From a virus: a stretch of DNA of 27,936 nucleotides. Shown piece by piece: positions 4,161 through 19,339 of this stretch. The position numbers were made by a program, and so were the translations under genes. The number at the start of each line of letters is the position of its first letter. The first letter of the stretch is position 1. Where the stretch lies: the IMG/VR virus record IMGVR_UViG_3300010400_000045, positions 1 to 27,936 of that record. One strand, 5' to 3'. The notes under the pieces were generated by a model that saw only the letters and a program-made list of their open reading frames with translations, did not search any database and was not told the DNA's origin.

Positions 4161-5090
4161 CTACGAGTACGTCCAATCGATGAACCTCGTCGTGTTGTCG
4201 CCGTAGTTCGAGTACGTCGTCGCTCCCGGGACGAACATCAGGTCCTCGTCTGGCACCCGCGTCTGGTCTCGGACCATCATCTGCAGGCCTTCCTGAGACA
4301 GGGCATACCACGTCTTCAACTGCTCGCCCCGGCCTTCGCTCTTGTCCGTGATGAAGTGCCACTTGGCATACGCCAGCAGGTAGATCTCGAAGTCCTGCGG
4401 GATGTCGAGCGTCGCTCCATCCGCCGTTCCCAACGCCGACGACATCATCGTCATGCGCCGATAGTAGCGGGCCAAGAGGACGTCGCTCGAGGCCGGTGGA
4501 GGCAGAAGTCGGATGCGACCCTTCCCTCCGGAGAGGAACAGGTCGTACCAGTAACTGCTTGAGGTCGTCTGCTCGCTGCCGATGGTGCGGTCGTAGAGCC
4601 GTCTTCCCACTGGCCTGAGAGTCAGTCCCGCATTCAGGAGCCGGAACGTGTAGCCCTGATTCCAATCCCCGGGGAGCGCATAGGTATCCCGCGTCACGGT
4701 GACCGTGGCCGTCGCGGTGCCCGTGAAACCAGAGGCACTGACGTAGAACCCGAACCCTGAGGCTGCAGTCGCTGAGACACGAAGTCCGGTGATGAAGCCA
4801 ACGGCCGAGATCATGTCTTCGGGCAGAATGCCGTGTCCCGTGGGACAGGCCGCTGAGACAGCGCCGGCGGAGGCTGTGGCGACTACGGTGAAGGGGGCGA
4901 ACACCGTGACCGGAGCGGCCTCAGTGAGCATGAAGTTCCAGTTGGCGCGGGTATTGAAGTGCTGCAGAGCAGCGTTCAGCGAACGTCCGGCCCGGTTCGC
5001 CATCGCGTCATCGGCCGAGGCCCCGACGCAATCCGCGATCTCCCTTACGGCGTCACTGATGACTTTCGTTGAGGGCTGGAACAGGCTCAT
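4161..5090 (-). CDS. Adaptor-like head-tail (T7 gp11 / tubular A-type) protein, 309 aa
   Basis: The N-terminus is helical (ISDAVREIADCVG...RSLNAALQHFNTRANWNFM), matching the pattern of phage tail adaptors, in which an early helix is followed by an aromatic 'W.F' strand. After an inserted beta-rich section of Thr/Val repeats (about 60-130), residues about 180-255 hold the usual core: LLPPPASSDVLLARYYRR, then a LDIPQDFEIYLLAYAKW helix. By family it would bind the portal and carry the nozzle. Its start ATG has a GGAAGGAG site eight bases upstream and lies 38 bases inside the end of the GT4-like gene. It sits directly before the nozzle-like gene. Confidence is moderate because the match is by pattern only. 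Confidence 0.6.
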   Translation of the reverse strand: MSLFQPSTKVISDAVREIADCVGASADDAMANRAGRSLNAALQHFNTRANWNFMLTEAAPVTVFAPFTVVATASAGAVSAACPTGHGILPEDMISAVGFITGLRVSATAASGFGFYVSASGFTGTATATVTVTRDTYALPGDWNQGYTFRLLNAGLTLRPVGRRLYDRTIGSEQTTSSSYWYDLFLSGGKGRIRLLPPPASSDVLLARYYRRMTMMSSALGTADGATLDIPQDFEIYLLAYAKWHFITDKSEGRGEQLKTWYALSQEGLQMMVRDQTRVPDEDLMFVPGATTYSNYGDNTTRFIDWTYS

Positions 5091-6381
5091 CCGTGGCTCC
5101 TTCCGCCGCCTCTTGCTCCGCCTTGGCCTGAGCCTCGATCTCCGCCCACTGACTCAGGCTCACGGTCGGTTGCTCGCGCTTCCGCTCTTCCCTCAACTGC
5201 TCCCAAGACGCCACGATCTTCGGGACTTCCTTCATGGCGTCCCGGTTCTCCGATACCCAGTCCTTCGCGTTCGCCGCCAACTGACGGCGGAACGTCACGT
5301 CCTCGATGAGCCGGGACAACTTGGCCTCGAACTCCTCGGGGTTGTTGAACAACAATGCCGTCTCGCCATCGAGAACCTCAGCCTTGTAGGCGGCCGTGTT
5401 CTGCGCCAGCGTCGCCGCCGGCTTCTTCAGGACCGACGACTCGTAGAACTTGATGGCACTCCGGCAGTCGTTGAAGATGTTTGGAGTCAATGGCGCGAGC
5501 GAGATGTCGTGTCCCATGCATGCCAACCGGACCTTGTATTCGGGATAGTTGCACCAGTCGTGGAACGTCATGCGATGCGGCGGAATCAGTTCGTTGACCC
5601 ACGGGAACTGGGCACCCCAGATAATCCAGTGCACCTGCGGGTACTTGCGCGTGATGTTCCCCAGAGCTTCGCGAAGAGGGTAGAAATCTTCGTAATGAGC
5701 GATGCCACCCTGCCAGAGAATCTTGACCGTCTCCGGCTCTTCAGCCAGAGCAACCTGCGGGTAATGGTCCATCCGCACAAGGTTCGGGAATACCCTGAGT
5801 CTCCGAGGTGTCAGTTCTCTTGACACCGCATCGGAGACGGGTGGAGTCGAGCACTGGACCTGGTCGGCGAGCTGCAGGATCTTCTTCCAACTCGCGATGG
5901 CCTGCCGGTTCTTGGCCAGCGAGAAGCCGTTCTGGCCATCCTTCCACAACACCTTCTTCTCGCCGCCTTGGATGACACCGATTTCATGCCCAATCGGAAT
6001 CATCTGCCCGTTCATGTCCCGGACCCCGAGGCTCTTGAAGGCTTGATTCAGTGGGGAAACATTGAACAGGTTGTCGTCCGTCTCCACGACCACGGACGGA
6101 GCCCACTTCCAGTCCTTGTCCACCAACGAAGGAAGGAAGCTCTGGACACCGCGGATGTTGTTGATGGGCTGGTCGCCAACCGGCTGGTACAAGAGGATGA
6201 GGTCCGACTCACAGAACTGCCGGATACGCTCTTCCGGCGACACCGAAACTTCATTGGTGTCCAGCACGACCTTGATTGGGAGTCCAAGCTGGGCAGCAGT
6301 CTCGATGGGGACTTGAAGCCTGTAATGGAAAGAGGCTGTGTGGCGTCCCGGAATAAGCGTATAGACCGAGAGCGGCTTCAC
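5053..6381 (-). CDS. GT-B fold glycosyltransferase (GT4-like), 442 aa
   Basis: A retaining-type glycosyltransferase by pattern. The N-terminal Rossmann-like half opens MKPLSVYTLIPGRHTASFHYRL and includes VVETDDNLF (about 98-106), seen in phage and bacterial GT4-like proteins. The C-terminal half has KILWQGGIAHYEDFYPL (about 220-236), the loop at the start of the nucleotide-sugar domain. NDCRSAIKFYESSVLKKP (about 304-321) follows, where the KFYE/S glutamate normally contacts the donor nucleotide-sugar. A ready TALLFNNPEEF box follows, typical of GT4. A charged, Glu-rich helix ends the protein. The start overlaps the preceding stop as ATGA. It stands alone between capsid-associated genes and the adaptor, far from the main sugar block. 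The acceptor cannot be told; virion or host glycans are both possible. Confidence 0.8.
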   Translation of the reverse strand: MKPLSVYTLIPGRHTASFHYRLQVPIETAAQLGLPIKVVLDTNEVSVSPEERIRQFCESDLILLYQPVGDQPINNIRGVQSFLPSLVDKDWKWAPSVVVETDDNLFNVSPLNQAFKSLGVRDMNGQMIPIGHEIGVIQGGEKKVLWKDGQNGFSLAKNRQAIASWKKILQLADQVQCSTPPVSDAVSRELTPRRLRVFPNLVRMDHYPQVALAEEPETVKILWQGGIAHYEDFYPLREALGNITRKYPQVHWIIWGAQFPWVNELIPPHRMTFHDWCNYPEYKVRLACMGHDISLAPLTPNIFNDCRSAIKFYESSVLKKPAATLAQNTAAYKAEVLDGETALLFNNPEEFEAKLSRLIEDVTFRRQLAANAKDWVSENRDAMKEVPKIVASWEQLREERKREQPTVSLSQWAEIEAQAKAEQEAAEGATDEPVPALNESHQ

Positions 6382-7655: not shown

Positions 7656-8630
7656 CTAGCCGTTCGTGACCCCCGTCATCGCGGCCCAACTCGACGGGTG
7701 AAGCAGTTCCAACGTCAACTCCATCAGTACGATACCGCGGGTGTGGTCGCCACCCTTTCCCATCGGTTTGTGCTGTGGCGCTCTGAAGAATGCGGTTCGC
7801 GCCATGGACCTATCCCCGATGTAGTACGCGCCCACGGCGGACGACGTGCTGATGGGGATGAAGCGGTCGGTGATGACGGCGTACAACTGGTTGAACGGGG
7901 TCTCGAAGACGTCGATGTTCGCCACGAGACGCTGGTCGGTGGCCGCGATGTTGCGGACATTGCCCGAGCCAGACGACACCGTGGCATTGACGAACTGACG
8001 CTTCGAGGCGGGAGCGAACCAGATGGAATCCGGCTCGGCACCGTTCTCGAACAGGGTCTGCGACAGGGTGCAGATGTCCGCTGTCGTCACACCGCCCGAG
8101 GCGGAGCTGGACGTGGTGATGCCGAAGCCACGGAAACCCGCCATCAACGGCGCGTTCGTCGCAGCCTCTGCGCCCGAGGCCGTCGACGCCGTGACCGTGG
8201 GCACCGTCCAGTAGCGTGCCTCGCAGTCTCGGGCGATGGCCTTGAACATCTTCATCACCTGGTGCTGGTACATGTCCGTGATACCCGCCGGATTGCTGGC
8301 GCGTTCGCGGTCCGAGACCAAGACGTGCTTCGAGAAGATCTGCGTCACGTTGAGCAGACGACTCGGAACCGTCAGTGAGTCACCGGAGAAGTCGACGCCT
8401 TCCACGACACCCGCCGTCGCCGTGGCCGGCAACGTATCCACCGTCCACGAGTGAACGGCGTCCTTCGCCCGAGTCTTGGGACTCGAGGAGAACATCGGGG
8501 TCTGGAACGAGTCGAGGATGGTGACGACGTCCACAAGGTCTTCGTGATGGACGTTCGTCGTGGCACCGAACAGGGTACCGACGTCGAAGGTTGAGACTAG
8601 GTTGGTTGGTACGGTCTGACCACCGGGCAT
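7656..8630 (-). CDS. Major capsid protein, SU10-like (DUF5309-type), 324 aa
   Basis: The pattern matches the SU10-type HK97-fold capsid family. An N-arm carries DLVDVVTILDSFQTPMFS (31-48), followed by 'W..D.L' (62-67). Then come VVEGVDF (75-81) and RLLNVTQIFSKHVLVSDRER (91-110), the R..N..QI....VS segment shared by these proteins. A long helix around 118-135 (YQHQVMKMFKAIARDCE) follows, and a C-terminal beta region ends with KPMGKGGDHTRGIVLMELTLE. About 324 residues is the usual size. The scaffold-like gene is directly upstream and portal is two genes further, the standard podovirus order. It assembles into the icosahedral shell. Confidence 0.85.
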   Translation of the reverse strand: MPGGQTVPTNLVSTFDVGTLFGATTNVHHEDLVDVVTILDSFQTPMFSSSPKTRAKDAVHSWTVDTLPATATAGVVEGVDFSGDSLTVPSRLLNVTQIFSKHVLVSDRERASNPAGITDMYQHQVMKMFKAIARDCEARYWTVPTVTASTASGAEAATNAPLMAGFRGFGITTSSSASGGVTTADICTLSQTLFENGAEPDSIWFAPASKRQFVNATVSSGSGNVRNIAATDQRLVANIDVFETPFNQLYAVITDRFIPISTSSAVGAYYIGDRSMARTAFFRAPQHKPMGKGGDHTRGIVLMELTLELLHPSSWAAMTGVTNG

Positions 8631-9714: not shown

Positions 9715-11625
9715 TCAAGACATCCCCGGCAGCGGCGCGCCGTTCCCTGTGGCCATCAGTTTACCCAAGACATCCGGGGATAGCTGGTCAAGCGGCTGAC
9801 TGACGGCGCCCGCCACCCCTGCCGGAGACTGCCCACTTTCTTGGGCCAACTGGTTGATCATGGGTACCTGCGTGACCAGCAGTTCATTGACGTTGGGGAA
9901 GTCGAAGAGGTCGAAGGCCTGTCTTGCAAAGTTCCCCCAGTTCACCAACTGCATCATGACCGGGTTAGCGGACATCATCTGCAACAGTGCCAACATGTTC
10001 TGCTGCCGGATGCCTCTACCGGTCATGTTCCGGGCCCCTACGGCTCGGGCCCTGTAGTCCGGCTGGAGGTCGTCGTAGTCGATGGTCGTCTCCACCGACT
10101 CGTAGGGCAATCCGGTCCCGGGGTTGATTGTGGCTAGGCTTGCGAGGATACGGACCTCGTGCGGGAACGTAAGCCACATCTTGTCCATGCGCCGGAACGA
10201 GTTGGCCAGACGTTCGATGAACCCTTCCTCGAGCAGAGTGGTCTCGAGACTCACACGGGTCAGGGCGTTCTCCTGCCGGCCCAAGAACCCCCGGGCCGTC
10301 TCTCGGCTCGAGCCCTGCATCCCGCCCAGCAGGGTCTCGGTTTCACCCGTGCCCAACTGCATCATCTGGAACAGGGTCGGGATCTCCGTGGCTGCCGCCG
10401 CAAGACCCCTCATGTCAGGAGACAGGGGGCGGATGCTCGTGTCATCCGCTGGGCCATCGACCAGAATAATGCGCCCAGCGCGGGTGAACAGGTGGCCGGT
10501 GTTTATGTTCACCCCAGAGTTAGCCACGTACATGGGGTCGATGAGTATGTCCAGAGCGTCCAGCTTCTGGTTCGTGATGCGGTTCGCCGTCTGCTGGGGC
10601 CCGAAGGCCACTTCCGTCTTCGCAACACCATCGAACGAGTACGGGTCCCGCATGGGCGAGAACGAGGCGAATGGCAACTCCTGGTTCCCCATCGGCCCTT
10701 CCCGGTCCTTCAAGACCACCTTGCCATTCCCGATGGCGAGGCAGCGGAACCGGATGCCGTCCGTCGCAAACTCCCGGGGGACCAGCCCGTGCATCTCCCA
10801 GATTTCCACGGGCTTGGAGAACCGCTCCTGACGTCTCGCTTGGTAGTCGTACTCGTTCCTGAAACTGACCCTGCGGACCGCGAACTCGTTCTCCGCGTCC
10901 GTGGTCATGTCGTACTGCCTTAGCAGTTCCACAGCCTGAGGGTCGAAGTAGGGGTAGTCCGAGTGGGCGTCGTCCAAGAGGTCTTCGAAGTCCACGTAAT
11001 AGCGGTGGATGACCCAGCCCATGTCCTCGATGGATGTCTTGGCCGGCTGCTGCCAGAAATCCAGACGGTCGACAGGTTCCCAGTCCGGGCCATCGAAGAT
11101 GGTCGCCATGCTCTCCCGGACCACCGGCACACTCAGGCCCGGAGCCACATGCTCCAACTGGCGAACCCGGTTCATCCGCCGCAACTGCTTCCAGCCGTAT
11201 CTGGCGATACCGGTCCCGCAGATGTCAGCCTGAAGGCAGAAATCAGTGGCCTTGACCACCGTCCCGCAGTCCTTCATCTGGGCTGAAATCAGGACCTCGT
11301 TCTTCTTGGCCCGCCCTACGTCTTCAGGGGCGTAGCCCTCGAACGTGACGATGGGCCACTGGCCGAAACTCGCCTGCACCTTCCGCGCGACATCCGACTG
11401 GATCATGGCGAAAGTGAAGGGGATGTTGACGTTGTTCCGGAACTGGGCGAGACGGCCCTGCCAAACCCCTCGGTAGGTGTCGTACCAACGCTGGAGCTTG
11501 GAGAAGAGGGCGGAGTTGTAGCGCAGCGAAGCCTCTCGACGCGCATTGACCAGCTCGATCTTGCGCGCTGCGGGGACTCCCGTCACCCGGGCCTGCACCG
11601 TGGCCTGAACGTTCCTTGTCGCCAA
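9715..11625 (-). CDS. Portal protein, 636 aa, TTG start
   Basis: Large mostly helical protein of the size typical of podovirus portals. The N-terminal part (about 20-75) has RREASLRYNSALFSKLQRWYDTYRG followed by NIPFTFAMIQSDVARKVQASF, a common opening of portals (a YR...R..VN.P.......V......). Later come FCLQADICGTGIARYGWKQL, a 'PF..F....DPY...G.' segment (LPFASFSPMRDPYSFDGVAK) and a helical stretch NRITNQKLDALDILIDPMYV. A Gln-rich C-terminus is also usual. By family it forms the 12-fold ring through which DNA enters and leaves. The best start is a TTG at 11625 with GGAGGG about ten bases upstream; there is no ATG nearby. Order terminase - (sugar block) - portal - scaffold - capsid fits. Confidence 0.85.
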   Translation of the reverse strand: MATRNVQATVQARVTGVPAARKIELVNARREASLRYNSALFSKLQRWYDTYRGVWQGRLAQFRNNVNIPFTFAMIQSDVARKVQASFGQWPIVTFEGYAPEDVGRAKKNEVLISAQMKDCGTVVKATDFCLQADICGTGIARYGWKQLRRMNRVRQLEHVAPGLSVPVVRESMATIFDGPDWEPVDRLDFWQQPAKTSIEDMGWVIHRYYVDFEDLLDDAHSDYPYFDPQAVELLRQYDMTTDAENEFAVRRVSFRNEYDYQARRQERFSKPVEIWEMHGLVPREFATDGIRFRCLAIGNGKVVLKDREGPMGNQELPFASFSPMRDPYSFDGVAKTEVAFGPQQTANRITNQKLDALDILIDPMYVANSGVNINTGHLFTRAGRIILVDGPADDTSIRPLSPDMRGLAAAATEIPTLFQMMQLGTGETETLLGGMQGSSRETARGFLGRQENALTRVSLETTLLEEGFIERLANSFRRMDKMWLTFPHEVRILASLATINPGTGLPYESVETTIDYDDLQPDYRARAVGARNMTGRGIRQQNMLALLQMMSANPVMMQLVNWGNFARQAFDLFDFPNVNELLVTQVPMINQLAQESGQSPAGVAGAVSQPLDQLSPDVLGKLMATGNGAPLPGMS

Positions 11626-11651
11626 TAGAGGGTCCCTCCGCCGCCGGTAGG

Positions 11652-12506
11652 CTACGCGCGCTCAGGCATGGAGTCTACAGCCGAGTTCAACCACCGGTCC
11701 CGCCACTTGGGCCACGACGCCCTCAGGTCGACCTCCGGCTCGTTCAACTGGTTCTCCCCGAGATTGGTCCAGATCACCTTGGGAGCATCATTCGCGATGA
11801 CGTCATGGACCCGGATGGCGGGGACTTTCAGCAATCCCGCCAGAACCACCGGGGCCGAGCCGCAGCCGATCATGGCCCGCGAAGCCCCGAGGTAGTTGGC
11901 CAGCTTCATGAAGTCCCCGTCGTCCGCGAATTCCGTCCAGTCCGGATAGGTTCGCGTCCCGATCTCTCTGTCCCTCTCATCCCCGACAAAGACAATCTCA
12001 TCGAACAGCTTCTCCAGTTCACCCCGGATGCCTGACAGGAACTTCCAGAACACGGGCGTATTGTGGGTATGGGGACACACGGGCATCCCGTGGAGGATGA
12101 GCCGGTTCTTCTTTCCCGAAGTCTCGACCTTCAAGCTCGGCTCGTTGGCCAGAACGTCGGGCTTGACCGACAGGTTCAACTTCGTCTGGTTCATGCACTC
12201 GAGCGTCAACTGGCGTACCGGAAAGCCACGGAGCCCCATGTGGACGATGGTCCGGTCCTGATGCGCTGACGTCGGGAGGTCGAAGTGCCACGGCTGACCT
12301 CCACAGGAGTAGTTCTCCACTCCTTCAATCAACTTGACTTGATTGACGCATGGTTGCGCCTCGAGTAACGGCACCAGCGGTCCGCAAGTACCGACGTCGA
12401 GCCATGCGTCAAACTTCTCGCCCGTCTTCTTCGCCCAGTGATAGGCCACGGGCCACTGATGCAATGCGTCTCCCATCTTACCGGGAAACGTGAAAGTCAT
12501 GCTCAT
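11652..12506 (-). CDS. GT9 / heptosyltransferase-like GT-B glycosyltransferase, 284 aa
   Basis: The first residues FTFPGKMGDALHQWPVAYHW match the 'G.iGD.....P......' opening of GT9 (ADP-heptose:LPS transferase-like) proteins. The second half contains a nucleotide-site-like stretch, FMKLANYLGASRAMIGCGSAPVVLAGLLKVPAIRV, corresponding to the 'L..l...a.l.ig.dSg..HlA.alg.P' segment of the family; here the usual Ser/His are replaced by GCGSAPVVLA. It is short for GT9 (usually about 320-350 aa). It is the last gene of the sugar block, joined to the upstream gene by an ATGA overlap. The likely activity is sugar transfer; donor and acceptor cannot be read from sequence. Confidence 0.65.
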   Translation of the reverse strand: MSMTFTFPGKMGDALHQWPVAYHWAKKTGEKFDAWLDVGTCGPLVPLLEAQPCVNQVKLIEGVENYSCGGQPWHFDLPTSAHQDRTIVHMGLRGFPVRQLTLECMNQTKLNLSVKPDVLANEPSLKVETSGKKNRLILHGMPVCPHTHNTPVFWKFLSGIRGELEKLFDEIVFVGDERDREIGTRTYPDWTEFADDGDFMKLANYLGASRAMIGCGSAPVVLAGLLKVPAIRVHDVIANDAPKVIWTNLGENQLNEPEVDLRASWPKWRDRWLNSAVDSMPERA

Positions 12507-13207
12507 ACCGCCGCCTCCGCGTAGAGTTCGATGGCCGCCTTTATCTTGTCGATGGCCTCATGTCTTCCAAGTGCCGCCCACATCGCAACAGACCTCGCGT
12601 CGTTGTGGATGTGGTAGATCTGGTACATCAGCTTCCCGACGTCAGTAAGGCTCGCGTCCTGCATGTCTCCCGTGGGTAGAGCCTCATGCCAGACCTTGAA
12701 CTCTTCGGGTCCTGCGAAGGCCATCTGCGTCGCTTCTCCCACGAGTTGCAGAGCCACGTCCCAGTAGGAGTGGTGGGTATCGAGCATACAGAACGAGCCC
12801 ATGACGTCGACCCACTCCGCCGTCGCCCACGGGAAGTCCATCCTCGGGACCTTGGAGCTTGAGAACGGAGCAATGAGCCCGATACCGCCCTTGAAAGCAT
12901 GTTTCGCCTGTAGCACCCATGAATCCCACCCGGGTGTCTCGAACAGGCAATCGTCCGTCGCGGCTCCGTAGGCTTCGTACCCCGGGCACTTGCGCCAGAT
13001 GTGGTTCAAGGAGCGGCACTGACCGACCCGTGGACCGACGACCATCTTGAAATCGCCGGGCAGGTTCTCGTAGTCGGCGACCTGGTCGTCGTCCACGTAG
13101 ACCACGATGTCCGCGTTGTCAGCAGTCCGCTCCACAGACTGGACCATCTTCACCAACCGGTGAGGCCTCCCCCGACTGGCGCACATCACCAAGACCTTGC
13201 CACTCAT
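12503..13207 (-). CDS. GT-A-like glycosyltransferase, paralogue 1 of 4, 234 aa
   Basis: N-terminal nucleotide-binding strand KVLVMCASRGRP (4-15), then a metal-binding-type acidic motif YVDDDQ (37-42), then a second acidic loop ATDDCLFETPGWDSW (83-97), and a late Trp-His (VWHEAL). This order (SRGRP, DxD, TDD-GWD-W, late His) is shared by all four paralogues in the block and fits a GT2-like GT-A fold. The C-terminus is helical and longer than in paralogue 2. Both ends have ATGA overlaps. The function inferred is transfer of one sugar of a multi-sugar glycan. Confidence 0.75.
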   Translation of the reverse strand: MSGKVLVMCASRGRPHRLVKMVQSVERTADNADIVVYVDDDQVADYENLPGDFKMVVGPRVGQCRSLNHIWRKCPGYEAYGAATDDCLFETPGWDSWVLQAKHAFKGGIGLIAPFSSSKVPRMDFPWATAEWVDVMGSFCMLDTHHSYWDVALQLVGEATQMAFAGPEEFKVWHEALPTGDMQDASLTDVGKLMYQIYHIHNDARSVAMWAALGRHEAIDKIKAAIELYAEAAV

Positions 13208-13854
13208 GGGTACATGGCCTCTCTCAGCTTGTGGACCACCTCGGGGAGTTTCAAAGCGACGTAGGTGAAGAACGACTGCGCGTCCTTCTCCCGGATGTCG
13301 GTGTTTGAGTGCGGGAGCCCATTGTGCGTGATGGAAAACCCGGGCTCAGGAGCGTGGACGATGGCCGTCATCTCGCCTATCAGACCCGTCAGGATGGGCC
13401 AGCAGAAGTGGTAAGTCTCGGGACACGCATACCAACCCACTACGTCAATCCAGTTCCTTGAGACGAAGGGCATGTCCACATGCTCACCGAGGTTGTGTCT
13501 TGGGGAGACGACGGCAAGACGATTGGGGAAGTTGTTCATCGCAGCTTGGACCCAGACATCCCAATCCTTGTCGTTCAGAGTCGTGTCGTCGGTGATGATG
13601 CCGTAAGCACTGTAATCCGGGAACTTCTCCACCAGATGATTCAAGGCTGCGACAGGACCGATTCTGGAGCCGTAGACAACCTGTGAGCCCGGAGGGTTGA
13701 CGCCGTAGAACTCACGTTGGTCCTCATCCACGTAGGCCAAGACATCGGCTTTCATGGCGGTCTTCCGAACCGACGCCACCATGTCCCGGAACGGCTCGGG
13801 CCTGTCTCTTGTGGGACAGAGCACCGCGACTCGCCCGTTACCCAAGGAGGCCAT
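13204..13854 (-). CDS. GT-A-like glycosyltransferase, paralogue 2 of 4, 216 aa
   Basis: The ATG at 13854 is chosen because GGAGG lies just upstream; a longer reading would run deeper into the FkbM-type gene. It overlaps that gene by 17 bases. The protein has CPTRDRP (13-19), YVDEDQ (41-46), ITDDTTLNDKDWDVW (87-101), a D.P......W....GW motif in the middle, and a late SITHNGLPH (His-Asn) motif. That His in GT-A enzymes often completes metal binding. Family usually needs a nucleotide-sugar donor and a divalent metal. A C-terminal helix follows. Confidence 0.75.
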   Translation of the reverse strand: MASLGNGRVAVLCPTRDRPEPFRDMVASVRKTAMKADVLAYVDEDQREFYGVNPPGSQVVYGSRIGPVAALNHLVEKFPDYSAYGIITDDTTLNDKDWDVWVQAAMNNFPNRLAVVSPRHNLGEHVDMPFVSRNWIDVVGWYACPETYHFCWPILTGLIGEMTAIVHAPEPGFSITHNGLPHSNTDIREKDAQSFFTYVALKLPEVVHKLREAMYP

Positions 13855-14479
13855 ACTGCCTCCACACGTACCCATCGTTGTCCTGACTCCTGAACACCCG
13901 TTCATAGCCCAAAGGCAACAGAACGTCGTCCAGAGCCCCTTGGTCCCATGATTCGACTAGCACGACCTTGGGCCGCCACCGCTTCAGGTCCAGTCCTGCC
14001 AAGACGTCTCGCTCAGTGCCTTCGGTATCGACGCACAGGGCATCCAGTCTCGGGAACTGGAGGTCGGCCATCAGGATCTCAAGCGTCGTCACGGGAACAA
14101 TGGTCGTCAGCCACTTCTCCCCCACCTGGTCCTTGAACTTGGGATGCTCCTGAGGCCTCAAGGACGAGAACGCCTCGATGTTGTCCAAGTGGATGTGGAA
14201 CGGACTTTCCTTGGCCGGCTTGTCCGACACCGCGCAGATACGGTGAAGGTTCCGCGTTTCCTTGAGCTTGTCGTTGTAGTACGGGTTGGCTTCAACGGAC
14301 AGAACGGTCCAGCGCCAGAAGTGCTCGAGCGTGTAGGTGGAGTTGGTGGACATGCCATCTGACGCCCCGACGTCGATGCAATACCCCCTGAACCCGGGAC
14401 GGAACTGGTCACGTATCCAGTCCGACAACTGGGCATTCGGGTGGTAGAAGACGTGCCGTATCGGAGGGGCGAGGGTCAT
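13838..14479 (-). CDS. FkbM-family SAM-dependent methyltransferase, 213 aa
   Basis: The SAM-binding motif CIDVGASDGMSTNS lies at 34-47, the second motif SVEANPYY at 61-68, and the FkbM hallmark CVDTEGTERDVLAG at 149-162. The last corresponds to the 'KIDvEG.E..vL.G' box. A C-terminal strand VVLVESWDQ follows, as usual in the family. FkbM-type enzymes often O-methylate sugars or polyketides; next to glycosyltransferases a sugar methylation is the natural inference. The protein is close to the family's usual length. ATGA overlap at its start. Confidence 0.85.
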   Translation of the reverse strand: MTLAPPIRHVFYHPNAQLSDWIRDQFRPGFRGYCIDVGASDGMSTNSTYTLEHFWRWTVLSVEANPYYNDKLKETRNLHRICAVSDKPAKESPFHIHLDNIEAFSSLRPQEHPKFKDQVGEKWLTTIVPVTTLEILMADLQFPRLDALCVDTEGTERDVLAGLDLKRWRPKVVLVESWDQGALDDVLLPLGYERVFRSQDNDGYVWRQYGLLG

Positions 14480-15165
14480 GTGAGGGCTTCCACCGGCTGC
14501 TTGGCCCGCAACAGTTCCAGAGCACGCTGGTAGCGGTTCGTGGTGAAGAACCCGTGGAGTTGACGCAAGTCCTCAGCACTCTTGTCAATGTCGGTGGGTT
14601 CCTTGCGGTCGTGCTCCACGAACATGACTTCGGGAGGGAGACGAACCAGCGAGGTCGCCTCCCCCAAGGCCTCGATGATGCTCGGCCAGCCGAAGTGATT
14701 CAGGGCCGGGTAGGCAATCCAGCCCAGACGTTCAATCCATTCGTCCGAGACGATGGCAAAGTCCATGAACGCGCCTTGAGAATGGGCCGGACTCATCGCC
14801 CAGACCTTCCCGAGACGTTCGGCTTCGTAGACGATGGCTTCGTCCCAACCCCGGACCGTGAACCGACAGTCGTCCACGAACAGCCCGAAGCCAAGATAAG
14901 TCCCCGATTCCTTCCGTGCCGCGCGGGTCAGGGCTTGCGCTGCGCCTACCGGACCACACCTCGGGCCGTAGGCAATCTTGAACGCCCCGGCCCCGACGAT
15001 CTTGGGCCTCGCCGCCTCGTACAGCTCCCGTTCATCGGAATCGACGTAGACGTAGATGTCTGCGAGACGTGAGGTGTTGAAGATGGACTGGACGGCTTGG
15101 AACAGGAGTTCAGGACGTCCTCTGCTGGGAATCAGGATGGCGATGCGCTTCTCGGTATCGCTCAT
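14476..15165 (-). CDS. GT-A-like glycosyltransferase, paralogue 3 of 4, 229 aa
   Basis: The ATG at 15165 overlaps the previous stop as ATGA, so a reading seven codons longer was rejected. Motifs: ILIPSRGRPELL (10-21), YVYVDSDERELY (38-49), GFGLFVDDCRFTVRGWDE (92-109), and late FVEHDRK in place of His-Asn. The 'Y.D.DE' and 'VDDC' acids are kept, so metal binding looks intact, but the last motif has diverged most in this copy, which may mean a different acceptor. A Ser/Pro-rich AMSPAHSQGAFMDF precedes the D.......W segment shared by the paralogues. Confidence 0.75.
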   Translation of the reverse strand: MSDTEKRIAILIPSRGRPELLFQAVQSIFNTSRLADIYVYVDSDERELYEAARPKIVGAGAFKIAYGPRCGPVGAAQALTRAARKESGTYLGFGLFVDDCRFTVRGWDEAIVYEAERLGKVWAMSPAHSQGAFMDFAIVSDEWIERLGWIAYPALNHFGWPSIIEALGEATSLVRLPPEVMFVEHDRKEPTDIDKSAEDLRQLHGFFTTNRYQRALELLRAKQPVEALT

Positions 15166-15848
15166 ACGGCGCTCGTCACCGGCCACGACAGACCTCCGAC
15201 AGACACCGTCAAGCCGCGGGTGCTCGCCTCCACCGCCTTACGGAGCATCGCTCGGTGGTCGTCCTTGTGCCACGCATACCATTCATAGAACTTGCGCGAG
15301 TCTGCTGAGAAGGTGGGGGACTCAGCGCCGACCTGGTTGTGGCGGATGTGGAACTTGTCTTGCGGGGCCTTGAACAAGCAGATGCCGTCCGACAGTGCAT
15401 CGATCACAGAAGGCCACGCATAGTGGAACAACTCCGGATGGATGAACCACCCCACCGCCTCCACGAACGCCTTCGTGACGAGCGGCATGTCGACACGATG
15501 GACACCCGAGTCGGCGCAGCGGGGAGAAACGACCGCAATCGGCCACACCGAAATGACTTCCTCCACCCAATCATCCCAACCCGGGGTCATGACCACGGAA
15601 TCGTCGGTCATGGTCGCCACCGCATCGTAGCCATCGGTGAACGCCTTCTTGGCGAGCGCCGCCCATCCGCGCGCGGGACCTACTCGAGGACCGTGGAACA
15701 CCTCTGCTCCCCCCATATCTGGGTACTCGGGAGCATCGGTGTCCATGTACGCCATGACGTGGGCCTTGGAGGTACGGTTGACGGAACGTACCGCTGTCAG
15801 GAACAGGTCCTTCCGGTCCCGGGTCGGGATCAACATGGCTATCTTCAC
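15162..15848 (-). CDS. GT-A-like glycosyltransferase, paralogue 4 of 4, 228 aa, GTG start
   Basis: The GTG at 15848 forms a GTGA overlap with the preceding methyltransferase stop and places KIAMLIPTRDRKDLF directly at the N-terminus, as in the paralogues. A longer in-frame reading is only an overlap artefact. Further motifs: AYMDTDAPEY (33-42), TMTDDSVVMTPGWDDW (79-94), SPRCADSGVHRVDMP, WFIHPELFHYAWP and a late HIRHNQV. All motifs shared by the set are present, so this is a good candidate for an active GT-A enzyme. It is the first glycosyltransferase of the block in transcription order. Confidence 0.75.
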   Translation of the reverse strand: MKIAMLIPTRDRKDLFLTAVRSVNRTSKAHVMAYMDTDAPEYPDMGGAEVFHGPRVGPARGWAALAKKAFTDGYDAVATMTDDSVVMTPGWDDWVEEVISVWPIAVVSPRCADSGVHRVDMPLVTKAFVEAVGWFIHPELFHYAWPSVIDALSDGICLFKAPQDKFHIRHNQVGAESPTFSADSRKFYEWYAWHKDDHRAMLRKAVEASTRGLTVSVGGLSWPVTSAV

Positions 15849-17104
15849 AGCACCAACTCGATGTTGGGAAGTGGGAACACAAGTGTGGTGCCGGAGTTCA
15901 AGAGGTCTCTCTCGCGTTTGACGAACTCGTCCCGGAACGCCCACGGCAGCGCGAACAGGAACCGGGGGTTGTCTGCGCGCATCTCGTCCTCCGACACCAC
16001 GTCCAACCACGTCCCCGCCATCTTCAACCCATGCTTGGCGGGATTCCTGTCTGCGATGGCCCTGAATGCTCCGGGGCAATCGAGGTACTGGAGCAGGCAG
16101 CAACCCTTGGTACTGGCCCCGTAGAGCCAGAGACCTCGCGGGGTCTCCAGAGGCCCCCTCAGGAGGTCAATCATCTGCGTCTTCCACTTCCACACCCGCT
16201 GCGAGAACAGCGTCGCGGAGCGTTCGCTCACTCCAACGTGGTCCCCCAGATGCCACGACGCTGCCGGAACCGAGGCCTTCTGCGCGAATACCCGCATCGA
16301 GCCGCCGTTCACCTCGTTGTACGTGACTCCGACGATACGGAGCCCGTGCTTGCGGTAGAGCTTGTCCAGACTCGGCAAGTCGTAGTAGCAGACGTGTTCA
16401 TGGCAGATGGCGTCGAAGGCGTTCCGCTCCATCATCGTCGGCGCGTCGTTCAACTGGTTTATCCAGACACCCGTGGGGCTCAAGACTTTGGCGATGTCCG
16501 CGACGAAGTCACTCGGGTTGTCCAAGTCGTAGAACATGGCAATCGTCGTGACGACGTCACAGGCACCCTTCCGCTCCGTGGCCATCAAACAGTCATGCTT
16601 GGCGGAGAAGTAGTCGGAGATGACGTGGTCGGAGACTTTGTGCAGGTCCTCCTTGAAGTTCCGCGCCGGCTCACACGCGATGCGACGGAACCTGTCAGGA
16701 ACCCTAGACAGCAAGTAGCCATCGTTAGCCCCGATGTCCAGCCACGTACCCTCCTGCACGAACTCAGCAGCGGAGTTGACAACGTCGTTCAAGGCATCGC
16801 GCATCGTCTGGTTGACCGAACTCCGGTACCAGAAGTTGCGATAGAGCAGGTCGCGATTGACCGTGACCGAGAGTTGCAGCAGTCCGCAGTCGGAGCAGCG
16901 CACGAGTTCCAGCGGGGCTTTGGGCAGGTCCAAGTCGGGGATGGCGGTGAAGTTGACCAGGTACTGGTTCCCGAGCGAGAGCACAGCGTGAAGTTCCCCG
17001 CTGTCGCAGACACGACAGGTCGTCCTCTCCGCCCAGACATCATTCTTCAGGACCTCGGTCAGCACAGCGCCCTCCCTGACGGTTGCCTTCACGTGCGTCC
17101 TCAT
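15845..17104 (-). CDS. Zinc-binding sugar C-methyltransferase-like protein, 419 aa
   Basis: Three-part layout of the NDP-sugar C-methyltransferase family. First, an N-terminal zinc site with CRVC (30-33) and CSDC (70-73). Second, a central SAM domain with WLDIGANDGYLLSRV (about 121-135) and the family-specific AICHEHVCYY (232-241), matching the 'HEH..Y' catalytic-type box. Third, a C-terminal Rossmann-like domain with WLYGASTKGCCLLQYL (326-341). The family adds a methyl to a keto-sugar nucleotide carbon (for example deoxysugars with a branched methyl). The length is typical. The start at 17104 overlaps the terminase stop as ATGA; a reading eleven codons longer was rejected. Together with the FkbM-type gene it suggests an unusual methylated sugar. 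Confidence 0.85.
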   Translation of the reverse strand: MRTHVKATVREGAVLTEVLKNDVWAERTTCRVCDSGELHAVLSLGNQYLVNFTAIPDLDLPKAPLELVRCSDCGLLQLSVTVNRDLLYRNFWYRSSVNQTMRDALNDVVNSAAEFVQEGTWLDIGANDGYLLSRVPDRFRRIACEPARNFKEDLHKVSDHVISDYFSAKHDCLMATERKGACDVVTTIAMFYDLDNPSDFVADIAKVLSPTGVWINQLNDAPTMMERNAFDAICHEHVCYYDLPSLDKLYRKHGLRIVGVTYNEVNGGSMRVFAQKASVPAASWHLGDHVGVSERSATLFSQRVWKWKTQMIDLLRGPLETPRGLWLYGASTKGCCLLQYLDCPGAFRAIADRNPAKHGLKMAGTWLDVVSEDEMRADNPRFLFALPWAFRDEFVKRERDLLNSGTTLVFPLPNIELVL

Positions 17105-18831
17105 CGGATTGGCTCCCTCGGTACGAGTTCTCTCCAACTCCGTACATCGTCACTCTCGAAATCGTCCAGATTGACGCCATCCATGTGAATCGGGGTCGCA
17201 CCCCTGTCCCACGGCGTCCGCTCCTGCTGCCGTCTCATCGGCTGGTACAACTCGGTCTGGAAGGCATCGGAGTGGGCATCGGCCCAGTCAATCTTGGTCC
17301 GCGGATTCACGGCGTACTGGCCAATCTGCGCCATCTGGGCAGTGAGCCTATCCATGCCCGGCGCACCCTTGACCCAACGCACATGCCCATCGACCCAGAA
17401 CGTCGATGCTGAGTGTAGCCGTTCGTACTTCTTCGTGGCTCCACGTTCAAACTCGATGAACCTAGGCATGGGCTCGTTCACGTCAGCGAAGAAGTTGACC
17501 AAGTTGAGACGCCACGAGTCCTTCTTGCCGGCACGAGTCTTCTCGTCCGTGATGGCGATGATATGGAAGCCCTGACGTCGATACCGCTGGACAGTCGAGA
17601 CCAACAACTTCCCGAAGTCCTCAGCCCTGAGAGTCGCGTTGCCATGAGCTTCGATGACGTAAACGTCCCCCGAACCGTTCCTCGGGTAGCCATGGACAAC
17701 CAATACCGTCTCATCCTTGCCCGTTATCTTGGTGCCGTCCGAGAAAGCAGTGTCGCAGCAGATGGCGAACCGAAGGGCCGACCACGGCACGTCCTTCTTC
17801 TCGATGGCGCACTGGTTGATTTGGTCACGAGTGATGGGGTTGAGTTCGGAGACCGAGGGGTCGTTCATGATCTGCGAAGCGTACCGCAACGGTTCGGACT
17901 TGGCGTACCGCTTCAACCGGTCTTCTGGCCAGACCAGTGGAGTCGTGGGGTTCCCGGAACCATCTCTCCCAGCCAAGAAGTAGACGTGAATCATGCCGTC
18001 CGGGTCGATGGGGATGGAATCGGTCTGCATCCCTGAGACTGAAGCCACTCCGAGGCTCTGGAACCCGACACCGAAGTGGTCGCCCGGGTCATACCGGGTC
18101 CCCGGCCAGACCACCAGACCGTTACCCTGAACCACGGGAATGAGAGAGGTAATCTGGGAGTTGACGGCCTGCAGCCAGTTGGTGTCAGTGGTCAGACGTT
18201 CGTAGGAGATGGGGTCGTCGTAGAACAGGGCGTCTGGATGACTTCCCGTGATGGAGGTCTCGACGCCGAAGATAATCATGGACGGGTCCTGCCGCGACGT
18301 GTTCTTGCGTCCGGTATGGACAATCTCCCTTCCCGTCCACTTGCGTGCCCCCGTAGACCAGTCCCCGTAGAGCTTGGCCCAGAGGGCTGAATCGTCTGAA
18401 CCATCGAGAACGGCCTTCATGCCCTCGAGCATCTTCTGGGCAAGACCCTCCTTCTCCGCCCCGGTGGCCGTGGCGATGTCAGGGTCACGCAGATGGAGCC
18501 ACAACTGGCCGGCGCGGGTGATCATCGTGGTCTTGCCGATCTCTCGGTGGACCAGGATAGCCAGGTGCTTCTGCCGCTTGATGCCCTGCTTGCGCCACAT
18601 CATCCACTCATCGACATGATGCTGGAACCAGCGAGCCATGGGTTCATGGACGTCGGGGTCGATCCAATCCTTGCCCTTAGGGTTCAAGCCAGCACCGAAG
18701 GCGTAGAGGAAGAAGGACCAGAAGTCCTGCCGGCAGAAATGACGTAGCAGGGCCATCTCTTCGATGGGGTCCCAGCCTCCGGGCTTACGCGGCCGGTCCA
18801 GCAGGTTCAGGTTGGTTAGATGTCTCGACAT
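17101..18831 (-). CDS. Large terminase subunit (packaging ATPase-nuclease), 576 aa
   Basis: ATPase part: Walker A-like LVHREIGKTTM (about 93-103) and Walker B-like DALFYDDP (about 200-207). Nuclease part: RFAICCDTAFSDGT (about 354-367), IAITDEKTRAG (about 426-436) and IDWADAHSDAFQTEL (about 514-528), giving the acidic triad expected in the RNase H-like domain. The size is typical. The ATG at 18831 was chosen as it has AGGAAAAGA directly upstream; starts at 18861 or 18885 would extend the overlap with the upstream gene. Even so the N-terminus overlaps that gene by 47 bases. By family it cuts concatemeric DNA and pumps it into the procapsid through the portal. Its end overlaps the first sugar gene by ATGA. 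Confidence 0.88.
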   Translation of the reverse strand: MSRHLTNLNLLDRPRKPGGWDPIEEMALLRHFCRQDFWSFFLYAFGAGLNPKGKDWIDPDVHEPMARWFQHHVDEWMMWRKQGIKRQKHLAILVHREIGKTTMITRAGQLWLHLRDPDIATATGAEKEGLAQKMLEGMKAVLDGSDDSALWAKLYGDWSTGARKWTGREIVHTGRKNTSRQDPSMIIFGVETSITGSHPDALFYDDPISYERLTTDTNWLQAVNSQITSLIPVVQGNGLVVWPGTRYDPGDHFGVGFQSLGVASVSGMQTDSIPIDPDGMIHVYFLAGRDGSGNPTTPLVWPEDRLKRYAKSEPLRYASQIMNDPSVSELNPITRDQINQCAIEKKDVPWSALRFAICCDTAFSDGTKITGKDETVLVVHGYPRNGSGDVYVIEAHGNATLRAEDFGKLLVSTVQRYRRQGFHIIAITDEKTRAGKKDSWRLNLVNFFADVNEPMPRFIEFERGATKKYERLHSASTFWVDGHVRWVKGAPGMDRLTAQMAQIGQYAVNPRTKIDWADAHSDAFQTELYQPMRRQQERTPWDRGATPIHMDGVNLDDFESDDVRSWRELVPREPIR

Positions 18832-19339
18832 TCTTTTCCTGTCCGACGATGCTCGCGGCATCGACTCGTCCCTGCTCTTGGTCAATCAAGAGTTGCAGGG
18901 CCTTCTTCTGGCACCAGTCCTTGACCACCGCAAGCCCCTTACCCATCGGGTAGCCCTGCGGCACTCCGGGCCTCTTGATTTCAGGGAAGCGGCGGTAGAG
19001 CTGCTTCAAGTTGACCGGCAGGGTCGCGCGGTCGATAATCATGTCCGCGACCGTGACTCTGGGGGCAGCGTGGTTGATGGGCCGTTTGGCTGCGGGGAAG
19101 GCCTTGCGGTAGGCCAGTTGAGCAACGGTAGGTCCTGCGGCGCGGATGATACGGCCCAGACGTTCGATGGCTTCGGCATCGGAGATGGGGTCAGGGAGCG
19201 TGATGGAACCCGTCTCTTGAGCGGCGACCATCTTCAAAGCCCTGAAGCGTTCAGCGCCTTCCCCATTCCGAGCGATGTCGGAGAGGATGGTCGTGACTTC
19301 ATCCAGCGTCAGGGGCTTCTGTTTCGGTTCCGGACTCAT
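18785..19339 (-). CDS. Probable small terminase subunit, 184 aa
   Basis: Directly precedes and overlaps the large terminase gene, the usual place for a small subunit. The start ATG at 19339 overlaps the previous stop as ATGA. Residues about 10-45 are helical (LDEVTTILSDIARNGEGAE), the middle has AERFRALKMVA and RLGRIIRAAGPTVAQLAYRKAF, and a basic helix-rich part follows. The 'FRALK..A' element is common in DNA-binding helices of small terminases, but I do not see a clear named family. The C-terminal tail is Pro/Ala/Gln-rich. Function by family: binds the packaging site and regulates the large subunit. Confidence 0.6.
   Translation of the reverse strand: MSPEPKQKPLTLDEVTTILSDIARNGEGAERFRALKMVAAQETGSITLPDPISDAEAIERLGRIIRAAGPTVAQLAYRKAFPAAKRPINHAAPRVTVADMIIDRATLPVNLKQLYRRFPEIKRPGVPQGYPMGKGLAVVKDWCQKKALQLLIDQEQGRVDAASIVGQEKNVETSNQPEPAGPAA

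Follow-up and report, generated by a model that had tools for sequence, protein, structure and literature searches.

A block of sugar-modifying genes between the terminase and portal genes of an uncultured phage lineage, with a probable role in virion glycosylation

The 27,936-base viral record IMGVR_UViG_3300010400_000045 (hereafter the window, which may be a fragment) carries on its minus strand seven co-directional sugar genes, spanning 17104-11652, that are sandwiched by the genes for the large terminase (TerL) and the portal protein. They encode a zinc S-adenosylmethionine (SAM) C-methyltransferase (CMT), four GT-A glycosyltransferases (GTa1 to GTa4), an FkbM-family methyltransferase and a GT-B glycosyltransferase with the fold of GT9 heptosyltransferases. 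It seems likely, with a probability of about 0.6, that this block is a phage glycan pathway, expressed late with the head proteins, which decorates one or several virion proteins with a short methylated sugar chain. A preliminary description, made from the letters of the window, had already delimited the seven genes and named their enzymes, and both the block and the enzyme identities are upheld by profiles, structure models and relatives. It had also called for structure predictions, which were obtained for two of the enzymes, and for a search for the same block in other phages, which found it in 28 further non-redundant genomes. The block is not a product of chance, given the E-values of its families, its recurrence in these genomes and ratios of nonsynonymous to synonymous substitution rates (dN/dS) of 0.07-0.11, similar to those of the terminase and portal.

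The distribution of the block was studied by searching IMG/VR contigs, the queries being the terminase, the portal, CMT and the GT9-like protein. The 210 viral loci retrieved were collapsed into 87 groups without any common identical 300-base stretch; the E-values of this search refer to candidate stretches, and gene starts in the relatives are approximate. TerL and the portal are found on one stretch in 33 groups, of which 29 (window included) make up a close lineage and four an outgroup, the contigs being classed as linear. TerL and the portal enclose the CMT and the GT9-like gene in all 29 genomes of a lineage within which TerL identity goes down to 53%. In 28 of them no labelled gene comes between the terminase and CMT, and the remaining one (L256) has one GT-A gene there. 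Between these ends the content varies, with 0-5 GT-A and 0-3 FkbM genes per genome. GT-A genes are absent from nine genomes, as far as their sequenced stretches reach, and several deep branches carry GT-A/FkbM genes immediately ahead of the small terminase gene instead. Within the individual gene families, median dN/dS stays in the range given above for every sugar gene and is about 0.10 for terminase and portal. The sugar genes are intact, in use and under purifying selection, and these ratios reject the idea that they are pseudogenes or junk cargo.

The variable genes of the middle do not result from local duplication. There are indeed four GT-A genes in the window, but the duplication implied when they were first called paralogues is rejected, as the nearest relative of each copy is found in another phage. 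Across the lineage, only 1 of 65 GT-A genes (in genomes with at least two) and 11 of 51 FkbM genes have their nearest relative in their own genome. Since these cases are so few, most copies are old and distinct versions in a shared, exchanged pool. Exchange can be seen between two close relatives, L014 and L015, whose terminases and portals are 99% identical, while their CMT and GT9-like proteins are 89% and 91% identical; the middle of the former is made up of one GT-A and two FkbM genes, and that of the latter of one FkbM and one HNH endonuclease gene. This HNH gene (L015, 9525-9995) lies inside the block, where L014 has its second FkbM gene, and is a possible driver of block exchange.

The organization of the block indicates when it is used. 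Counted from TerL onward, six of the seven junctions are 4-base overlaps, of the form ATGA at TerL/CMT, GTa1/GTa2, GTa2/FkbM, GTa3/GTa4 and GTa4/GT9-like and GTGA at CMT/GTa1, and the FkbM/GTa3 junction is a 17-base overlap once the GTa3 start is corrected to 13854. The GT9-like gene is followed after 26 bases by the portal. Since the genes overlap from TerL through the GT9-like gene, they would be made together with the packaging and portal proteins; late expression coupled to head-protein production, as previously proposed, is thus supported. The G+C content of the block is about that of its flanks (0.59-0.63), so that a very recent foreign insertion is not indicated. The minus-strand order is small terminase, TerL, CMT, GT-A, GT-A, FkbM, GT-A, GT-A, GT9-like, portal and capsid genes (Table 1).

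Table 1. Sugar-modifying genes of the window and the head genes around them
Feature	Coordinates	Strand	Evidence and remarks
Small terminase	upstream of large terminase	-	gene order in window
Large terminase (TerL)	17101..18885	-	phrog_38 7e-41; upstream flank of the block
CMT, three-domain zinc SAM C-methyltransferase	15845..17104	-	Pfam Methyltransf_13 2e-11, Methyltransf_23 2e-13, Methyltransf_14 1e-22; first block gene
GT-A glycosyltransferase 1 (GTa1; GTG start)	15162..15848	-	phrog_14945 1e-7; family alignment with DxD, DD and C-terminal His
GT-A glycosyltransferase 2 (GTa2)	14476..15165	-	phrog_14945 8e-12; family alignment
FkbM-family methyltransferase	13838..14479	-	PF05050 8.5e-17; TIGR01444 5e-13
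GT-A glycosyltransferase 3 (GTa3)	13204..13854	-	phrog_14945 1.5e-14; AlphaFold model (pLDDT 92.9) resembling GT2 enzymes
GT-A glycosyltransferase 4 (GTa4)	12503..13207	-	phrog_14945 2e-11; family alignment
GT-B glycosyltransferase, GT9 (heptosyltransferase) fold	11652..12506	-	model pLDDT 78.9; last block gene
SU10-type portal	9715..11625	-	PF23899 1e-14; phrog_1216; downstream flank of the block
Major capsid protein	7656..8630	-	phrog_1328 1e-45; candidate acceptor
GT4-like glycosyltransferase	5053..6381	-	phrog_7162 glycosyltransferase 4e-21; outside the seven-gene block

CMT has the domains Methyltransf_13, SAM and Methyltransf_14, in that order and each over its curated Pfam cut-off. When a profile of nine phage copies was compared with solved structures, it matched D-mycarose 3-C-methyltransferase (4rv9, 2e-53) and TcaB9 (4e-39). 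The zinc cysteines C30, C33, C70 and C73 and the residues H235-E236-H237 are invariant in the nine phages, and the Glu-His pair aligns with the EH of 4rv9 and TcaB9; the residue two before the active-site Glu is Cys in the window and most of these phages and Tyr in the TcaB9/D-mycarose family. Judging from these domains and residues, CMT would be a nucleoside diphosphate (NDP)-sugar C-methyltransferase of the TcaB9/MycC type, predicted to methylate a 4-keto sugar nucleotide at C3. It shares with TcaB9 and the D-mycarose enzyme the three-domain layout, the zinc cysteines and the Glu-His pair, but differs from them in being encoded in a phage head operon, with no partner sugar-nucleotide genes in the window. 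Relatives at 34-42% identity are scattered over many cellular genomes and indicate no clear host. The FkbM protein likewise passes the curated cut-offs of its families (62.2 vs 22.7 bits for PF05050, 49.7 vs 37.7 bits for TIGR01444), and its sequence search against solved structures gave noise only. Relatives of CMT and FkbM are also found within about 3 kb of one another in a 735-kb uncultured phage genome (LR756501.1, ~318565-322545), and this pair therefore co-occurs in very different phages.

The GT-A proteins have phrog_14945 as their sole convincing sequence match. None of the four matches the Pfam glycosyltransferase families at E-values up to 1, and a sequence search of their family against solved structures gave noise only. 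Nevertheless, the model of GTa3 (predicted local distance difference test, pLDDT, 92.9) has a GT-A fold, for which Foldseek finds WrtF, TarP, RmlT and SpsA (E-values from 6e-9 to 4e-7), and the YxDxD and DD motifs and the C-terminal His are kept in 15 members of the family. The four proteins are thus assigned to the GT-A fold and phrog_14945 and not to PF00535. As for the GT9-like protein, its model (pLDDT 78.9, a moderate confidence) resembles GT9 enzymes along the whole chain, with VIA Z values of 17.3 to WaaC (over 251 residues), 16.1 to WaaF and 14.2 to TibC; nevertheless, it is shorter than these enzymes, only 12-14% identical to them and without a Pfam match. It has no homologues in 50,697 phage records, nor in bacterial and archaeal genomes (one genome for each of 84,980 species) at the sensitivity of that scan, and consequently the GT9-like family points to no host or gene source. 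The flanks point to no host either, since the best identities of terminase and portal in cultured-phage records are only 21-26%.

The extent of the pathway had been underestimated: the seven genes stand, but an eighth sugar gene lies outside the limits first drawn, separated from the major capsid gene upstream of it by a few small genes and followed by a conserved gene (5090-4161). Its GT4-like product falls below the Pfam cut-off for group 1 glycosyltransferases (PF13692, 20.9 vs 27 bits) and NF038229 is likewise sub-threshold, while a homologue in the outgroup contig L246 passes PF00534 (27.3 vs 26.4 bits). The protein is 60-72% identical among relatives, and all 22 testable genomes have its gene downstream of the capsid gene. 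By mean pairwise identity it is the most conserved shared sugar gene (62%; CMT has 56%, the GT9-like protein 54%, and portal and capsid about 70%). It is also present in two outgroup contigs and therefore appears to be older than the sugar block.

The outgroup also informs on the site itself, which the preliminary description regarded as normally uninterrupted. This does not hold in the wider group. The four outgroup contigs (L243-L246, TerL 34-40% identical) have 1.0-2.8 kb of other genes between TerL and portal, and some Microbacterium phages show that additional genes in this interval are not unusual (PMC7302621). No homologues of CMT, the GT9-like gene, GT-A or FkbM were found in the interval of the four contigs, which instead contains PolB-type exonuclease-like and Methyltransf_11 genes, a GT2 gene (L243) and a gene of the rhamnosyl O-methyltransferase/CmcI family (L244). 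Going by these family assignments, the site has borne sugar-type genes beyond the close lineage.

Some smaller genes accompany the block in part of the lineage. A short DUF4254-like protein (80-98 aa) is encoded in the gap between the GT9-like gene and the portal in many relatives (L007, L009, L037, L039, L043, L046 and L049) and not in the window. Unrelated large phages (L093, L102, L104 and L111) have members of this family close to CMT and FkbM genes too, which makes a share in the same biochemistry probable. Between terminase and CMT, L010 has a 125-aa open reading frame (ORF) with an FDLDDTL motif (11635-12012), identical in L005, L011 and L012; its identification as a haloacid dehalogenase (HAD) phosphatase is unsupported, Pfam giving weak unrelated matches only. 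At the end of contig G007, L131 has a low-complexity Gly-Tyr-Asp repeat ORF (~14131-14418), possibly an assembly limit.

The source of the sugar donors was addressed through the genes that might make them. No nucleotide-sugar synthesis gene was seen in the window, as the preliminary description had stated; epimerase/dehydratase genes are missing in 10 of 11 long relatives tested, and no nucleotidyltransferase gene was found in 12 of 12 records. The statement does not extend to every relative, as one of them (L039/L040) has a GDP-L-fucose-synthase-like short-chain dehydrogenase/reductase (SDR) after CMT, inside the block (NF047922, 1e-26, under the strict cut-off). Enzymes of this type act on 4-keto sugar nucleotides of the kind expected as the CMT substrate. 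A C-methyltransferase and a GDP-4-keto-6-deoxymannose epimerase/reductase also form the proposed route to virenose in Coxiella (PMC3539893).

Taken together, these enzymes could act as follows. Host sugar nucleotides would serve as donors, and CMT, by its family, would add a branch methyl to a host NDP-4-keto-6-deoxy sugar. The GT4-like enzyme, the GT9-like enzyme or both might attach and extend the first sugars on a virion protein, a role suggested by the presence of these two, like that of CMT, in every genome. Outer sugars would then be added by the variable, soluble GT-A enzymes, each responsible for one linkage, and might be capped by FkbM enzymes through O-methylation. The comparison of genomes demonstrates the exchange of middle genes between phages while the ends stay constant, and its purpose could be to alter the pattern of the coat. 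Given the position of the GT4-like gene close to the capsid gene, the capsid protein comes first among the candidate acceptors, tail or decoration proteins being equally open.

Several precedents have sugar genes in a head module. In Corndog (cluster O), gp35-38 comprise an O-methyltransferase and glycosyltransferases by the portal, capsid peptides were fewer than expected in mass spectra, and a modification of the capsid was proposed (PMC4351075). Virion glycosylation was later reported for Corndog, Che8 and Myrna (PMC12363180, citing Freeman 2023). The window resembles Corndog in having an O-methyltransferase and several glycosyltransferases in the head operon beside the portal, and all three phages in having sugar genes within the structural operon. 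Nevertheless, Corndog is a Mycobacterium siphovirus with four genes between portal and protease, for which no C-methyltransferase, heptosyltransferase-fold enzyme or layout with fixed ends and variable core is mentioned. The podovirus ctQWt234 (MW202801) has a sugar cluster in its head module and a relative of the GT4-like protein (27% identical), but its six-gene cluster comes after the capsid gene and contains radical-SAM-like, PhyH, NodB-like and DREV genes, and its terminase adjoins the portal. The Streptomyces phages Coruscant, EGole and Tribute have tandem pairs of phrog_14945-type GT-A genes (24-26% identical); these are large phages, however, and the genes lie outside the terminase-portal interval, beside a cytidylyltransferase or nucleotidyltransferase. 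By analogy, the recurrence of sugar genes in head modules (Corndog, ctQWt234) lends support to a virion glycan. Such glycosylation is thus already known in kind, and what is new is the lineage (with its SU10-type portal), the gene set, the site and the design with fixed ends and a swappable core.

Nevertheless, a number of points weigh against a virion glycan. Although the methylated glycan first proposed fits best among the readings considered, the data here identify no acceptor; its place among head genes tells timing, not target, and the virion glycosylation of the nearest precedent depends on different enzymes. CMT products normally require a 4-ketoreductase before transfer, and none was seen in the window. 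The GT9-like protein has 0 matches in Pfam, PHROG and NCBIfam, which is why it is called a GT9-like fold and not a GT9 member; its sequence search of solved structures gave noise only. Its donor-site residues may moreover be lost: the stretch matching the DxGxxH motif, which we take to hold the donor-site Asp and His of GT9 enzymes at this presumed position, reads CGSAPVVLAG in the window protein.

The same enzymes might alternatively modify the host surface, a late change of lipopolysaccharide (LPS), capsule or another glycan hiding the receptor from other phages or released progeny. The GT9 fold is that of the LPS heptosyltransferases, surface-polysaccharide loci are known to contain CMT and FkbM types, and the many cellular genomes with CMT relatives could be read in the same way. 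Yet the block has no membrane glycosyltransferase, flippase or anchor, and the coupling to the terminase implies a very late production that leaves little time for a surface change to count. In addition, none of the eight sugar proteins has a convincing membrane helix (19-residue hydropathy peaks at 1.67, where the GT9-like protein has its predicted Rossmann core), which fits the modification of a protein in the cytoplasm better than a membrane-linked O-antigen conversion. Together with the constant place in the head operon of so divergent a lineage, this makes a surface role unlikely. It is still less probable that the genes are cargo without one shared purpose, in a terminase-portal gap that would merely tolerate exchangeable insertions. 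The other genes of the outgroups at this site, the variable core and the HNH gene of L015 would agree with such a view, but CMT and the GT9-like gene were never lost in 29 genomes, selection on the block is as strong as on terminase and portal, and the outgroup genes are partly sugar-modifying too.

A role of the GT-A enzymes in glycosylating modified phage bases against restriction appears quite improbable. GTa2 weakly matches phrog_842, a beta-glucosyl-HMC-alpha-glucosyltransferase (8e-4), and a TET-associated glycosyltransferase is found at rank 30 among the structural neighbours. Nevertheless, no Pfam match to any DNA-glycosylating family was obtained at E-values up to 1, thymidylate-synthase-type genes or domains are absent in 12 records (with working controls), methylating enzymes of the CMT and FkbM types act on sugars, and the nine genomes that lack GT-A genes in their sequenced stretches would have no such enzyme. 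A Tet_JBP search also gave nothing, but it is uninformative because its controls gave no signal. Least probable of all is a small soluble methylated sugar product (a signal, inhibitor or lysis aid) that leaves particle and surface unmodified: antibiotic sugars are the best-known context of the CMT family, but no aglycone-making gene or exporter was recognised nearby and a large variable set of glycosyltransferases is typical of glycan chains.

If the virion glycan is favored, its genes call to mind bacterial O-antigen and capsule loci, in which conserved ends flank middle genes that can be exchanged and that determine the type of glycan. The block likewise has conserved ends and an exchangeable middle; it differs from these loci in lacking a polymerase, a flippase and donor synthesis and in sitting in a phage head operon. 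One may tentatively see in it a phage counterpart of a serotype locus, where the end genes and the capsid-linked glycosyltransferase would build a common C-branched core and the GT-A/FkbM set, shuffled by recombination at the conserved ends, would switch the outer coat of near-identical viruses; this narrower hypothesis is less probable than the virion glycan as such.

Upstream of the terminase, three further minus-strand genes (20160-19336, 22551-21964 and 24121-22568) share a similar N-terminal Cys4 zinc ribbon and have unlike C-terminal parts. Their homologues occur at the same place in relatives at about 30% identity, diverging far faster than the neighbouring terminase. The product of the last one, a 517-aa protein with an N-terminal CxxC zinc ribbon, matches GHL15 (hypothetical glycosyl hydrolase 15) at 27.7 vs 27 bits and is possibly a glycan-degrading virion or receptor-binding part.

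If the proposed pathway is correct, virion glycosylation would be an old trait that an uncultured phage lineage always retains, its chemistry being swappable, and would extend beyond a few actinobacterial phages. CMT would join the small number of phage enzymes from which branched-chain sugars are expected. Finally, the lineage would offer near-identical phages as a natural series, distinguished mainly by their coat-glycan genes, in which the environmental purpose of virion glycosylation would become directly testable.

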